Part shown: positions 1 to 33,952 of the stretch, in pieces
Layout: each line of letters starts with the position of its first letter
Numbering within the stretch: the first letter of the stretch is position 1
IMG/VR virus record: IMGVR_UViG_3300027973_000134
Location: 1 to 33,952 of that record
Direction: 5' to 3' (one strand)
DNA: 33,952 nucleotides
Source of the DNA: a virus
Notes under the pieces: model-generated
What the model saw: the letters and a program-made list of their open reading frames with translations, nothing else
Told to the model about the DNA's origin: nothing
Databases searched by the model: none
Translations under genes and position numbers: made by a program

Positions 1-248
1 TATATTATAGCGTCTTTTGGAATTACTACTTCATTGTAGTTATTACTATAAATTTCCAGTCGTTCCAGTCGTTCCAGTTGTTCCAGTTGTTGCAGTCGTT
101 CCAGTTGTTGCAGTTGTTGCAGTTGTTGCAGTTGTTGCAGTTCTAAAATTCTATTCTTTAAAACTTTTGCAACCTTTCCAAGCGCTATTCTTCTTTTATG
201 CCAATCTGTTTGTTTTAGTATTCCATCAATATATTTCTGAGGAATATT
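1..248. repeat. left copy of terminal direct repeat (genome overlap)
   Basis: Bases 1-248 repeat bases 33732-33952 in the same orientation. The only difference I see is three extra 9-base units in the left copy, which makes it 248 bases against 221. The repeat lies inside one gene, and joining the ends restores an uninterrupted methyltransferase reading frame with its DPPY motif. The simplest reading is a circular or circularly permuted genome whose contig ends overlap. A true short terminal redundancy cannot be excluded from sequence alone. Confidence 0.93.
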
Positions 249-689
249 TGGCAATAATTGTTTTAATAGTTTTGGATTTTTGTTTATTACTAACTCATGA
301 CCAGCCCTTTTATATGGTTCTGTTTCTTTGCCAAAAATATAATCTTTTTGATTATTTCCAAAAGACCAAATACACATTACATATCCCACAAACCAATCTT
401 CATAATTATTAGGATTTTTTAGTACATCTTCAAACTTTGCTCTTGTGATAAATTCTAAACATTTTTGTTCATTTAAACCTTTGTTTATTGTTTGGTCTAA
501 TAAAGCAACTACATATTTATTTTTATCATTTGCAATAACATTAAAACCATTTTTATAGAATATTTCTCCAATAGCAAAACCACCACAAAATAAATCTATA
601 ATGGTTTTTTTGTTTGGATTAAAATTTATAATTGTTTGATAAATCTTTTGTGCGGATTTTCTTTTTGACCCCATGTATGGTATTGGCAT
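1..689 (-). CDS. dam: DNA adenine methyltransferase, D12 class (Dam-like), N-terminal part; gene runs across the contig end
   Basis: Transfers a methyl group from S-adenosylmethionine to adenine N6 in DNA, probably to protect phage DNA from host restriction. The start at 689 shares one base with the stop of the ParB-like gene (TAATG), implying translational coupling. Seen in the sequence: PYMGSKRK at residues 4-11, typical of the D12 N-terminus; motif I DLFCGGFAIG at 32-41, the SAM pocket; then the probable target-recognition region; then nine LQQ/LER/LEQ triplets at 184-210. The frame is open to base 1 and continues at 33731, where it reads Y-C-D-P-P-Y and runs to a stop at 33485. The joined protein is 311 residues with nine triplets or 302 with six, normal for Dam-type enzymes. 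The recognition site cannot be read from sequence. Confidence 0.9.
   Translation of the reverse strand, partial: MPIPYMGSKRKSAQKIYQTIINFNPNKKTIIDLFCGGFAIGEIFYKNGFNVIANDKNKYVVALLDQTINKGLNEQKCLEFITRAKFEDVLKNPNNYEDWFVGYVMCIWSFGNNQKDYIFGKETEPYKRAGHELVINKNPKLLKQLLPNIPQKYIDGILKQTDWHKRRIALGKVAKVLKNRILELQQLQQLQQLQQLERLQQLEQLERLERLEIYSNNYNEVVIPKDAII
60..140. repeat. 9-bp in-frame tandem repeat, nine units (left copy)
   Basis: Nine back-to-back 9-base units of the forms TTGTTGCAG, TCGTTCCAG and TTGTTCCAG. On the coding (minus) strand each unit is three codons, giving LQQ four times, then LER, LQQ, LEQ, LER, LER. They are residues 184-210 of the D12 methyltransferase, about 20 residues before its DPPY motif. 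The right-hand copy of the same region has only six units, so copy number differs between the two copies in this one sequence. Because the unit is a multiple of three, gain or loss changes protein length but not frame. Confidence 0.95.
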
Positions 690-6853: not shown

Positions 6854-7584
6854 TTTTCTAATATTGCTCGTTCAACTACTAAATTTGCTAAAATCCTTTC
6901 CTCAGAATATGCGAAGTATAAAAAAGTGTTTAAGTTTTGATAATGGTTGTACATTCGTTTACTTTCCTTTTTTAGTTCCTCAACTTCTTCTGGATTAAAA
7001 TATTTTCTGAATTTTCTGTGAATTATATTTGCTTGGAATATCGTTCCGGTCCATTCTCCACATTCTAAACTTTCCTTATATGTTTTGATCGAACTTTCAT
7101 AGAAATCAATTAAACTTTTTTCTCCTTCATTTTTTTCGATTTCTTCATTTTCAATTTCTTTGATTTCGCAAAGCATTTTAATCTTTACTAAATAGAATTT
7201 TCTAATCGGTTCAAGAAGTTCAATTTTTGTAATATTTCGCCAGTCTGTCTTTACTGGATTAGATCTTTCAAAACTATATTCGATGTCATCGAGTGTGATC
7301 TCAGGGAAATCAAGCATAATTTGTTTTACAACCGATCCAGTTAAGGCATCCGACATTTGATTTTGTCGTATTCCAAAATAGATATCAGCACAATCAACAA
7401 TCTTTTCGTAAATCTTTACCGCCAGATCAACTTTATCTGGATAGTTTTTTATTAGATTTCCGTTGCTTAATTGTTGGCAATCTTTTTGATTAATCTCTAT
7501 TCCCGTCGCCGAAATTCTGTTGATTAAATTTTTCTCTAAATCGATCTTTTCCTTCTTGTTGAATATCTGTACGTGATTTTCCAT
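6835..7584 (-). CDS. replication-associated protein, possible helicase loader (249 aa)
   Basis: I cannot name this family with certainty. It is largely alpha-helical, with a central acidic helix (EIKEIENEEIEKNEGEKS, about 150-167) and a C-terminal helix ending in VVERAILEKWQIKG. It contains no Walker motif, so it is not an AAA+ loader. Its place straight after the O/DnaD-like initiator suggests a replication accessory protein. The start at 7584 creates a 95-base overlap with the initiator gene in a different frame; the next ATG is about 76 codons in (MSDALTG), which would discard a region that looks properly coding. Confidence 0.6.
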   Translation of the reverse strand: MENHVQIFNKKEKIDLEKNLINRISATGIEINQKDCQQLSNGNLIKNYPDKVDLAVKIYEKIVDCADIYFGIRQNQMSDALTGSVVKQIMLDFPEITLDDIEYSFERSNPVKTDWRNITKIELLEPIRKFYLVKIKMLCEIKEIENEEIEKNEGEKSLIDFYESSIKTYKESLECGEWTGTIFQANIIHRKFRKYFNPEEVEELKKESKRMYNHYQNLNTFLYFAYSEERILANLVVERAILEKWQIKG

Positions 7585-8293
7585 TATTTCCAGTATTTAT
7601 TTTGTTAAAATTAATATTATTTGTTTTAAACCAATCGCTTTCAAATCCACCCCAACTTTTTTCAATACATTTTTCTAAAATTATATTTTTATCATGTTCG
7701 TTTATTTCGACTTGATTAATAAATTTATTAAATGCGGTTTCTGTATTCGTTAATTTTTTGTTTTTACGAACTTGTAACCAATCATTTATTAATTCAATAT
7801 GAAATCCATAATCTATACACGACTTTTTAAAGTCGAATTTTATTTCTTTTATTTCTTCTTTTTCTTTTTTAATTACTTGATTTTCTTTTTCTTCTTCTAT
7901 TGATTTCATTTGTGTTTCATTACCGTTTCTTTTGCGTTTCATTTCTGTTTCATTTATATTTTCAATTGATTGATAACAATCATATTTACAGACAATTAAG
8001 CGTGTCGTTTGCGTTTCATTTTTAACCTCAACCATATTTTCATTTTGTAGAGTAATTAAAAATCTTCTTACCGCACTTTTATCCCAGTTCCAACGTTTTC
8101 CCCATGAATCTAAAGACAATATGCTTTCGCCTCTATTTATAGTATATACAGTCCCTTTTATTATACTTTTACCCTCAGCATAGTTAACCATTAATAGAAT
8201 GTCATTCCATGCCTCAAACTTACTAAATTTACGTTTTTCGGTATAAAGCCAATGATCCATTATATTTCTATGAATTTTTATCCAACCACTCAT
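7490..8293 (-). CDS. phage replication initiator, O/DnaD-like
   Basis: A 267-residue protein with the N-terminal winged-helix seen in phage replisome organisers: GWIKIHRNIMDHWLYTEKRK at 3-22, KFEAWNDILLMVNY at 25-38, RGESILSLDSWGKRWNWDKS with AVRRFLITLQNENMVEV (about 54-90), then TTRLIVCKYDCYQ. A long, highly charged linker (about 115-150, rich in K, E and N) leads to a C-terminal helical domain containing WLQVRKNKKLTNTETAFNKF, similar to DnaD-type ends. It probably binds the phage origin and recruits the helicase. The start overlaps the end of the 58-residue gene by 4 bases. Lambda O-type initiators often contain the origin within their gene; no iterated repeat array was seen here. Confidence 0.8.
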   Translation of the reverse strand: MSGWIKIHRNIMDHWLYTEKRKFSKFEAWNDILLMVNYAEGKSIIKGTVYTINRGESILSLDSWGKRWNWDKSAVRRFLITLQNENMVEVKNETQTTRLIVCKYDCYQSIENINETEMKRKRNGNETQMKSIEEEKENQVIKKEKEEIKEIKFDFKKSCIDYGFHIELINDWLQVRKNKKLTNTETAFNKFINQVEINEHDKNIILEKCIEKSWGGFESDWFKTNNINFNKINTGNNGKSRTDIQQEGKDRFREKFNQQNFGDGNRD

Positions 8294-13974: not shown

Positions 13975-16653
13975 TTATATTAAAATATTTCCTTGTAAAT
14001 CGTGAACGTTTGTAACGCCTTGTGTAATATTTGCATTTACTGCCGTAGTTGCCCCCTCAAAAGTATTTGAAGCATATTTTACTGTTCCAGCGGTTGATTT
14101 ATATATACAATTTGCACTTGCTGAGGTTACCTGAATATTGCAACCAGTTACTGAATTTAAAGCGCTTAATTCCACACCATGACCAGCAGACGAATTGTAA
14201 AGTGTTTTAATTGTGCAATTTTTTATTCCCCCATTATTTGGATAATAACCAAAAGCCGCACCACTTGCAGCGGTTGACATTGCAGTACAATTTAAAACGT
14301 GTACTTGCCCATCGTTTCCATTACTGACAATTATTCCATAGTTTCCAGTTGAATATCCGTTACAATCTATATACTGCCCATTGTAACCGCTTAATCCAAC
14401 ACCAGAAATTGAAAATCCAGAACAATTTAAACTTATTGATCCACCAGATCCAACAAAACCAGTTGAGGAAGTTGAAAACCCAGAACAATTTTCTGCTTTA
14501 CCATTATTTTTAAATCCACCTACACTTATAGAATGACCGCTACAATTTAATGAATTACCACTATTTACGAATGCAGATGCATAACCTCCAGCAGTTGTTG
14601 AAATAGCTGAACAATTTGTTGCCGTTCCACCATCTATTTGAATAACTGCAAAATAAACCGAACCTTTTGAAATTCCATGGCAATTAATTAAAGTTCCACT
14701 TGCACAATATATGCCATAATGAGAACTATTTGAATTTAGTTCCACATAATGATTTGACAAATTTCCAAGAGTAACATAAACTCCACTATAATTAATAACA
14801 TAAGATTTTCCACCATTTAGATAGCAATTTGCATTATTTAATAAAATACAAAGCGCGCCAGTTGTTGAGAATATTGCGGTTGTTTTTATATTTGATGCTC
14901 CTGATAATGAAAGACAAACATTATCAGTTAAACTTGTTGTTCCACCAGTTCTAATAATTTTAATATTGTCAATTGAACAATCAACCGCAACACCTCCATC
15001 AGTAAAAGTATTATTTGATCCAGTTTTATTTAATGTATAAGTATGTCCGTTTCCATTTATATTAACTCCATTTTTTAAAGTAACCGCCCCACTTGTTTCG
15101 GTATAATCTGAAAATAATTCAATAGTTTGTCCACTTGTTGCTGAAGCCATTGCAAGAATCAAAGTTGCATAATATGTATAAACACCGCTTGAATCAGTAA
15201 TTCCAAAAACACCAGAAGCGCCAGAAACCGTCCATGATCTATTTGCAGATAAATCATAAGTAGTTCCATTTATTGTTAACGTTCTTGTTGTTGCTACTTT
15301 ATTATTAAATGTAGTCCAATCAGTTGAACTTAAATATCCGTTTACACTTCCACTTGCAGTTGGTATCGCTTTGTTTTTCCATAAAGACGTTGACGTTTCA
15401 TATTGAAGAATATCGTTGTTTGTAACCGAGGAAATCGCAACATTGTGAAGTTCTTGTAATTCGTAACCGTTTTGAATTCTATAAACAATAGTTCCATTTG
15501 TTGGACTTGTACGAACTACTTTACCCATATAAACCAAATGATCTGGCGCGGTTGGTTTCACGTTTGTAATATATCCAGCAGTAGTTGGACTTAGATAAAT
15601 TGTATCTCCATCAACAAGGGTGTCGACTGTGAATGGGTGCGTGGCAGTTGATCTTGTATCTAAATTGTCAATTGCTCCAATAGTAACACAATTTCCATCA
15701 GCATTGTTTAAGATATTGTTTTCAATTACTCCAAATGTACCAGCACTTGTTGCCTCAACGTCTGCCCTTGCTTTTACAAAATTAGGTCGATTTCCAGTTG
15801 ATCCAAGAATATAAACGATTGTTCCTTTGTAAAGAGTAGATCCAGTTGAGTTCCTTCCAACTGTTACCATTTTATCAGCACTCGCAAAAGTTGGAATATC
15901 TAATGCAGTAATAAAAGGATTCAATCCATCTGCTCCATCGTTTGTTAAATCTGAGGTTAATGTTGGAACTGTGGGAAGATCCAAAGCGGTAATAAATGGG
16001 TTAATTGTATCGTCTCCATCGTTTGTTAACTCAGATGTAAGAGTTGGAACGGTTGGAATATCTAAGGCGGTTATATAAGGATTTATTGTATCAGAACCAT
16101 CGTTTATTAATTGCGAAGTCAATGTTCTTGTTCCGCGTGTTGGAGAAACAAATAATTGACCGTTTGCATCAACAACGGTACAAATTCCAACAAAAACTTG
16201 ATCTATATCAGTTCCTACAACAGTCAAAGATTGTGAGGCAACGTCCCAGAATATTTTTTGCCCAACTGTTAAACCGACCGTATACCAATTATCTAAGAAT
16301 CCGTTTTGAATAAAAGTCCCAGAATTTCCGTTTAAAATATCTTCATTTGCTATAAAGATTTGACTAAGTCCAACGTTTGAAAAACTTGACGAAAGCAAAG
16401 CGATTTCTGGTAAATCTAAACCACTTGCGCCACTTAATTCGACCGCCATTCCTTTTGAAATTGTGTCTCCAGTATTGTTTTTAAAAGTAAAAGAAGAACC
16501 CAAATTTAGATTAGTATTCAAAAAATCAATTAACTGAGTAATCGTTAATTTTTTACTCGTGTAAATACTTCCATCGAATTCCGATATATCAATTAAACTT
16601 GTTACATCTGGATTCCCAGCACTTGCAGGATATTGTGTAATTTTCTTTCCCAT
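13975..16653 (-). CDS. tail fibre / tailspike with right-handed beta-helix domain
   Basis: 892 residues. The N-terminus (KKITQYPASAGNPD ... SKKLTITQLIDFLNTNL, about 3-48) resembles phage fibre attachment regions. Then come three 27-residue repeats (about 175-256, centred on DDTINPFITALD), a segment GYLSSTDWTTFNNK (about 439-452) frequent in fibre proteins of Bacteroidota phages, and from about 480 a long beta-helix rich in N-C-S/T turns (LNCSGHS, AENCSGFS, LNCSGFS, IDCNGYS, LNCTAMS, IKNCTIK). Such helices bind or cleave surface glycans; a catalytic site is not identifiable. It shares only the junction base with the upstream gene (stop/start at 16653) and is the probable host-range determinant. 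Confidence 0.82.
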   Translation of the reverse strand: MGKKITQYPASAGNPDVTSLIDISEFDGSIYTSKKLTITQLIDFLNTNLNLGSSFTFKNNTGDTISKGMAVELSGASGLDLPEIALLSSSFSNVGLSQIFIANEDILNGNSGTFIQNGFLDNWYTVGLTVGQKIFWDVASQSLTVVGTDIDQVFVGICTVVDANGQLFVSPTRGTRTLTSQLINDGSDTINPYITALDIPTVPTLTSELTNDGDDTINPFITALDLPTVPTLTSDLTNDGADGLNPFITALDIPTFASADKMVTVGRNSTGSTLYKGTIVYILGSTGNRPNFVKARADVEATSAGTFGVIENNILNNADGNCVTIGAIDNLDTRSTATHPFTVDTLVDGDTIYLSPTTAGYITNVKPTAPDHLVYMGKVVRTSPTNGTIVYRIQNGYELQELHNVAISSVTNNDILQYETSTSLWKNKAIPTASGSVNGYLSSTDWTTFNNKVATTRTLTINGTTYDLSANRSWTVSGASGVFGITDSSGVYTYYATLILAMASATSGQTIELFSDYTETSGAVTLKNGVNINGNGHTYTLNKTGSNNTFTDGGVAVDCSIDNIKIIRTGGTTSLTDNVCLSLSGASNIKTTAIFSTTGALCILLNNANCYLNGGKSYVINYSGVYVTLGNLSNHYVELNSNSSHYGIYCASGTLINCHGISKGSVYFAVIQIDGGTATNCSAISTTAGGYASAFVNSGNSLNCSGHSISVGGFKNNGKAENCSGFSTSSTGFVGSGGSISLNCSGFSISGVGLSGYNGQYIDCNGYSTGNYGIIVSNGNDGQVHVLNCTAMSTAASGAAFGYYPNNGGIKNCTIKTLYNSSAGHGVELSALNSVTGCNIQVTSASANCIYKSTAGTVKYASNTFEGATTAVNANITQGVTNVHDLQGNILI
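15886..16130. repeat. three tandem 81-bp repeats within the fibre gene
   Basis: Three diverged 81-base units encode 27-residue repeats of the form TLTS-x-LTNDG-x-D-x-x-NP-x-ITALD-x-P-x-x-P. They lie between the N-terminal attachment part and the middle of the fibre, and probably act as a spacer that changes fibre length. DNA divergence between units shows that the duplication is not recent. Confidence 0.85.
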
Positions 16654-33484: not shown

Positions 33485-33952
33485 TTATTTCGATTCTTGT
33501 CCTGAAGGTATAAATAATTTTTCATCTGGTTGATTATTATGTTTCTGAACACCCCCTTGTAATGTGCTTTTTTGACTAAATGAAAGTAATACTTCAAAAT
33601 CATCTGGAGCATTATATTCTGAAATATAAATTTTATTAGTCTTTGATATTTGCCTAACCCAATCCCAAAACTTCACATGATTAAAACTACCTTCTTTGTA
33701 TTCTGCTGTTCCTTGATAAGGAGGGTCACAATATATTATAGCGTCTTTTGGAATTACTACTTCATTGTAGTTATTACTATAAATTTCCAGTCGTTCCAGT
33801 CGTTCCAGTTGTTCCAGTTGTTGCAGTCGTTCCAGTTGTTGCAGTTCTAAAATTCTATTCTTTAAAACTTTTGCAACCTTTCCAAGCGCTATTCTTCTTT
33901 TATGCCAATCTGTTTGTTTTAGTATTCCATCAATATATTTCTGAGGAATATT
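33485..33952 (-). CDS. dam: DNA adenine methyltransferase, D12 class, C-terminal part (continues at base 689 side of the circle)
   Basis: The minus-strand frame is open from 33952 to a TAA at 33485. This is the C-terminal half of the gene started at 689. It contains NIPQKYIDG..., six LQQ/LER/LEQ triplets (33791-33844), CDPPYQGTAEYKEGS with the DPPY catalytic motif IV, then FWDWVRQISKTNKIYISEYN and APDDFEV, a typical D12 C-terminus. Bases 33732-33952 duplicate 1-248. The stop lies about 20 bases before the small terminase start, and an 11-base tandem repeat (33468-33489) spans the junction. Confidence 0.9.
   Translation of the reverse strand, partial: NIPQKYIDGILKQTDWHKRRIALGKVAKVLKNRILELQQLERLQQLEQLERLERLEIYSNNYNEVVIPKDAIIYCDPPYQGTAEYKEGSFNHVKFWDWVRQISKTNKIYISEYNAPDDFEVLLSFSQKSTLQGGVQKHNNQPDEKLFIPSGQESK
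33732..33952. repeat. right copy of terminal direct repeat
   Basis: Identical to bases 1-248 apart from three fewer 9-base units; 221 bases. It closes the genome into a circle inside the adenine methyltransferase gene. Confidence 0.93.
33791..33844. repeat. 9-bp in-frame tandem repeat, six units (right copy)
   Basis: Six units instead of nine. On the coding strand they read LQQ, LER, LQQ, LEQ, LER, LER. The missing units are three identical TTGTTGCAG repeats, which points to slippage in a homogeneous run. Confidence 0.95.

Follow-up and report, generated by a model that had tools for sequence, protein, structure and literature searches.

A variable-length in-frame Leu-x-x array in SFGN-type D12 adenine methyltransferases of phages

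The window analysed in this study, an IMG/VR virus record taken over its whole length of 33,952 bases, carries at its ends a D12 N6-adenine methyltransferase gene that contains a 9-base tandem repeat. As judged from sequence comparison, such an array is a feature of the SFGN-type D12 methyltransferases of many unrelated phages and is not peculiar to the phage of the window. We think it probable that the array is an in-frame coding minisatellite shaped by slippage together with selection at the protein level, that it does not set the core target of the enzyme, and that it may serve as an arm of the protein.

The methyltransferase gene and the ends of the window

The two ends of the window repeat one sequence and differ only by a 27-base gap (common prefix of 115 bases, common suffix of 120 bases, 0 mismatches), and each end carries the array (Table 1). 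Read on the minus strand, the left array is LQQ LQQ LQQ LQQ LER LQQ LEQ LER LER and the right array is LQQ LER LQQ LEQ LER LER, each followed by LEI, so that three identical CTGCAACAA units have been gained or lost. Both arrays were reported by Tandem Repeats Finder, with scores of 122-136 for the nine units and 89-103 for the six, and they were the top 9-base arrays of the window. The open reading frame joined across the contig ends was intact in both versions, with 311 amino acids for nine units and 302 for six. The preliminary description, made from the sequence alone, was thus right that the end copies differ by three 9-base units, nine against six, and that the length changes without loss of frame. 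Frame-shifting, ON/OFF phase variation was rejected, because units of 9 bases leave both window versions open and every array read was in frame.

Table 1. Coordinates of the methyltransferase gene, the arrays and the end overlap in the window
Feature	Position	Strand	Remarks
D12 N6-adenine methyltransferase gene, 5' part	1..689	-	motif X (GSK), motif I DLFCGG (579-596), SFGNN recognition region, array
D12 N6-adenine methyltransferase gene, 3' part beyond the overlap	33485..33731	-	catalytic motif DPPY (33716-33727)
Left copy of the end overlap	1..248	.	alleles separate after base 115
Right copy of the end overlap	33732..33952	.	same as left copy minus 27 bases
L-x-x array, nine 9-base units, then LEI (51-59)	60..140	-	sequence comparison, Tandem Repeats Finder
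L-x-x array as repeated in the right copy, six units	33791..33844	-	three CTGCAACAA units fewer

The joined protein matched the Pfam family MethyltransfD12 (PF02086) with an E-value of 1.5e-13 and 51.5 bits against a cut-off of 22, and its motifs follow the alpha order, GSK (X), DLFCGG (I) and DPPY (IV). Both results bear out the initial assignment to the D12 adenine methyltransferases. The enzyme had also been called Dam-like, which is right as to the D12 class; the name Dam itself is too specific, since the relatives that were scanned in place of the joined window protein (L003, L016, L066 and phi15) reached only 33-41 bits against the cut-off of 114.85 bits of the NCBIfam dam family (TIGR00571, GATC). 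With at least four L-x-x units ahead of strand beta-3 and DPPY, the window enzyme belongs to the array-bearing SFGN-type group. No bacterial relatives of the window protein were found in the related-locus search.

The window encodes terminase, capsid, portal and tape-measure proteins and is therefore from a tailed phage, whose complete genome, about 33.7 kb long, is very probably contained in this contig. The inexact end overlap itself indicates a complete genome, circularly closed or permuted, and an overlap test requiring exact ends would call this contig linear. Arrays of this kind may explain assembly breaks at such genes and complete phage genomes hidden as linear contigs. A ParB-like/nuclease ORF (689-1162) adjoins the methyltransferase gene, and one of the PHROG families it matches is annotated as DNA methyltransferase. 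Other repeats of the window are an 81-base tandem repeat (15893-16110, 2.7 copies, 75% match) inside an 892-amino-acid minus-strand ORF of the tail region (13975-16653), and short degenerate tandem repeats at 7904-7955 (11/22 bases) and 7837-7890 (21 bases) in a DnaD-like helicase loader ORF (7490-8293).

The array across the enzyme family

All full-length IMG/VR relatives carry an array at the same place, and nearly all relatives with an SFGN-type recognition region have one of about 4-25 L-x-x units. Its alignment position was the same in 33 aligned relatives, between the recognition region and strand beta-3/DPPY, which is where it had been placed in the window from the outset. A family scan whose profile was built on motif I and DPPY and did not select for repeats gave 80 loci with 72 readable ORFs, and at least four L-x-x units were present in about 66 of the 72 (67 were flagged, and L149 was a false match on inspection). 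When the enzymes were sorted crudely by motif, the array was found in 56 of the 58 with an SFGN-type recognition region and in none of the eight FGG/NGG-type enzymes, which include those of isolated Cellulophaga, Klebsiella and Croceibacter phages. At the array site FGG/NGG-type enzymes have sequences such as '..LEGVKFFNKNYYDL..', a single LxxV ahead of beta-3, which suggests that a short Leu motif where this strand begins may have given rise to the array.

The array also occurs, with about 2-18 units, in isolated Lactococcus (Skunavirus) and Leuconostoc phages, a Streptococcus phage record and a Cylindrospermopsis virus. Its presence in isolated phages means that it is not a metagenome artefact, and the isolated Lactococcus and Leuconostoc phages are ready experimental targets. 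It is carried as well by a few cellular genome records, among which are several Bacteroidales MAGs. A chance or DNA-level element was rejected, as the mixed-unit arrays lie in frame, in methyltransferases and at one position; other matches to the CTG pattern were mostly simple microsatellites or short spurious frames, and 7 of 120 bacterial-genome ORFs were methyltransferases. Among the titles and abstract starts searched, with subscription journals outside the coverage, no literature was found with LQSLQSLQS-like strings or such repeats in phage methyltransferases. The enzyme family is known, and the array is real, widespread and undescribed in the literature covered by this search. One phage contig carries two neighbouring methyltransferase genes (L029:133-1059 and 1225-2136) whose arrays are unlike in length and age, and the lactococcal versions of 1W08F (L351) and 79201 (L352) combine the array with an insertion of about 54 amino acids after DPPY.

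Evolution of the array

Young arrays nearly always use a single Leu codon per gene (CTG, CTC, CTA, TTG or CTT), and the remainder of the gene in AT-rich relatives uses mainly TTA for Leu. The array Leu codon is CTG, CTC and CTA, respectively, in the close relatives L003, L004 and L005. Within the units, residue 2 is either Q or E, and residue 3 either R or one of Q, S and N, with most of the switches made by a change of one base. Of 109 arrays, 45 were free of synonymous differences among their units, and 44 of these 45 had nonsynonymous differences. The 65 young arrays (those with at most four variable positions) contained 151 nonsynonymous and 16 synonymous variable positions, with 58% synonymous expected among tolerated single changes; the arrays are related by descent, so that 151:16 overstates the number of independent events. 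At least 21 distinct synonymous backgrounds could be told apart, of which 20 showed polymorphism at residue 2, residue 3 or both. Some of the arrays were collected with the CTG pattern, which biases the Leu codon counts and leaves the synonymous/nonsynonymous contrast at other codons unaffected. The simplest reading of uniform synonymous bases with varying residues 2 and 3 is that slippage or unequal exchange has turned the array over repeatedly while selection favoured mixed units.

In older arrays synonymous differences abound (pS up to 1.0) and several Leu codons occur, and the L-x-x period is still kept, which argues for constraint at the protein level; the search accepted only L, I or M at position 1, which makes the retention of the period illustrative, and residue 3 was left free. 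Residue 3 is almost solely R, Q, S or N (Arg 371, Lys 7, Asp 1, Pro 1). Charge balance behind the mixed units was tried and rejected, since the net charge per array ranged from -7 to +9 and the correlation of 0.41 between E and R content was not convincing. E and R are coupled within a unit, which may reflect mere linkage of the two bases. In L012 (3001-3957) the array has an 18-base higher-order unit of about seven pairs, in which LER is always CTCGAGCGA and LEQ or LQQ is always TTA-based. Identical arrays recur in separate isolates (one is shared by phi93 and phi145, another by phi15 and Phi114), so the array does not have the look of a fast switch. A conserved yet fast-changing array with its variation concentrated in two residues per unit, present in a large group of phage orphan methyltransferases, is an unusual evolutionary signature.

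We propose that a 9-base in-frame coding minisatellite gives rise to a variable-length L-[Q/E]-[R/Q/S/N] array that joins the recognition region to beta-3 in the SFGN-type D12 enzymes. The unit number would shift by slippage or unequal exchange of near-identical units, as the clean indels of whole units suggest, and selection at the protein level would maintain the Leu-x-x period and the mixed unit types, as the synonymous/nonsynonymous pattern suggests. The core DNA target would not be set by the array, judging from the published targets of relatives. The array itself may be an exposed, length-tolerant arm for structure or protein contact, either self-association or contact with a partner. 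This last role is put forward tentatively, and we rank it above that of a merely tolerated spacer.

A neutral, tolerated minisatellite, in which slippage acts at a permissive surface loop and selection asks just for frame and solubility, is somewhat unlikely. It would account for the in-frame unit, the wide length range (4-25), the indels that explain the differences between close relatives and the low model confidence for the array. However, the array is almost never missing in the SFGN-type subfamily, and the L-x-x period is retained in the old arrays despite their many Leu codons and pS up to 1.0. The strong nonsynonymous over synonymous excess within young arrays and a residue 3 nearly without Pro, Asp and Lys also stand against it.

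Structure prediction gave a confident core for L003 (nine units including the terminal LEI), with T4 Dam, E. coli Dam, DpnM and Mcbe1 as the best solved matches (Z 14-16). In this AlphaFold model the array is a coil with pLDDT of about 30 between the helix 163-180 and strand beta-3 (208-211). In that of L016, with its 25 units, the array starts as an extension of the preceding helix (pLDDT 61-81) and is otherwise unstructured. The two models show no consistent structure of the array and no solenoid. The array alone gave SDS22 (E 7e-4) and internalin A (0.08) against the PDB, a weak LRR resemblance that is perhaps one of composition only.

Array lengths in the sampled population

From the contigs compared, both array lengths, six and nine, are probably real in the sampled population. 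L018, a contig assembled from a second metagenome (3300009160), matches the window at 100% identity along 3,359 bases and stops at base 115, the exact point where the six- and nine-unit versions part, and a contig stopping at the branch point is expected from an assembly graph with two lengths. Near-identical pairs also differ in unit number, although short-read assembly may collapse or expand an array in metagenome contigs: L008 and L016, which come from two samples, have 17 and 25 units and share 99.97-100% identity across about 4 kb outside the array, and there are 8 against 5 units both in L005 and L010 (96.5% identity) and in L003 and L007 (93.7%). The break of L018 and these pairs agree with the early suggestion that the end difference is real variation, and the check proposed with it, a comparison of unit number in related phages, has found different numbers in close pairs (17/25 and 8/5). 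The first seven units of the related gene L006 (LQQ x 4 LER LQQ LEQ) match those of the nine-unit form, which suggests that nine units may be the older state and six the product of deletion or collapse.

Alternatively, the 27-base difference may be an assembly slip, with one length in the population, which we consider unlikely. The missing part is three of four identical units, a classic collapse, nine may be the true form judging from the start of L006, and a repeat loop at small k could break the L018 contig likewise. Against a slip, L018 ends precisely at the base where the two versions diverge, the window contig crosses the locus once per version, and the further near-identical pairs are also unequal in unit number.

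The array and DNA recognition

Phage orphan methyltransferases shield phage DNA from restriction. It is improbable in our estimate that residues 2 and 3 make up a modular interface that is shuffled by slippage and exchange, with the resulting order of units under diversifying selection, and that either reads DNA or escapes a host factor. In the first case the interface would modulate the sites protected by the phage enzyme; in the second, the host factor would bind the methyltransferase.

The preliminary description had proposed that the number of repeats tunes recognition. The lactococcal relatives bear on this claim. Murphy et al. (2014, PMC4190342) found by SMRT sequencing CC(m6A)G in phi15 and CY(m6A)G in phi93 and phi145, and assigned these motifs to the replication-module enzymes M.Phi15I, M.Phi93II and M.Phi145II, that of M.Phi145II by similarity and not by expression. 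Their text does not mention repeats, and the residues omitted from their Figure 3 alignment, 55 in the long forms and 15 in phi15, agree in number with the array. By our count M.Phi15I has six units, and M.Phi145II and M.Phi93II have 18; outside the variable segment M.Phi15I is 88.7% identical to the 18-unit enzymes. A threefold difference in array length thus leaves the target nearly unchanged, CCAG against CYAG, and tuning by repeat number finds no support here. Either the array or the differing residues outside it (11%) could account for the C-to-Y difference. The lactococcal isolates 2R14S (L340) and 2R06A (L341) are 99.6% identical outside, and the whole spacer and array differ in a cassette-like manner, so the segment is exchangeable as a block, which leaves room for a role in recognition.

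That unit number or order tunes DNA recognition or activity, or that residues 2 and 3 contact DNA as a modular code, is quite improbable. In a profile alignment, the array stops at the point that corresponds to residue 145/146 of T4 Dam, and so comes after the recognition hairpin region of that enzyme. This position, the variation of just two polar residues per unit with Arg far above Lys at residue 3 (371 vs 7), the 2R14S/2R06A swap and the one-base distance between CCAG and CYAG speak for such a role. Against it stand the nearly same target with six and 18 units and the lack of a split target on which a ruler of the EcoR124 type could act. Moreover, the array is inserted just before beta-3, which by topology is likely away from the cofactor face, and some arrays are uniform and hence codeless (LQS x 9 in L030, LQN x 8 in L110).

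Comparison with known systems

T4 Dam, E. coli Dam and DpnM share the motif order X-I-II-TRD-IV with the window family and are among the best structural matches of the predicted core, but T4 Dam has no array at the corresponding position. Also close are M.Phi15I, M.Phi145II and M.Phi93II of lactococcal 936-type phages (Skunavirus), which are phage orphan enzymes and resemble the window enzyme in fold family, motif order, SFGN region and array site. They differ from it in that identity is about 32%, targets have been assigned there only, and the arrays have mainly CTT/TTA codons. The TAEL repeats in the HsdS subunits of EcoR124I and EcoR124II, with which the array had at first been compared, are likewise in-frame coding repeats of varying number in a DNA-methylation protein. 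That analogy does not carry over: the EcoR124 repeats lie between two recognition domains and determine how far apart the two halves of a split target are, whereas the window family has 4-25 units of three residues in a single-domain D12 enzyme with the catalytic motif in the same chain, and the target of its relatives is short and continuous.
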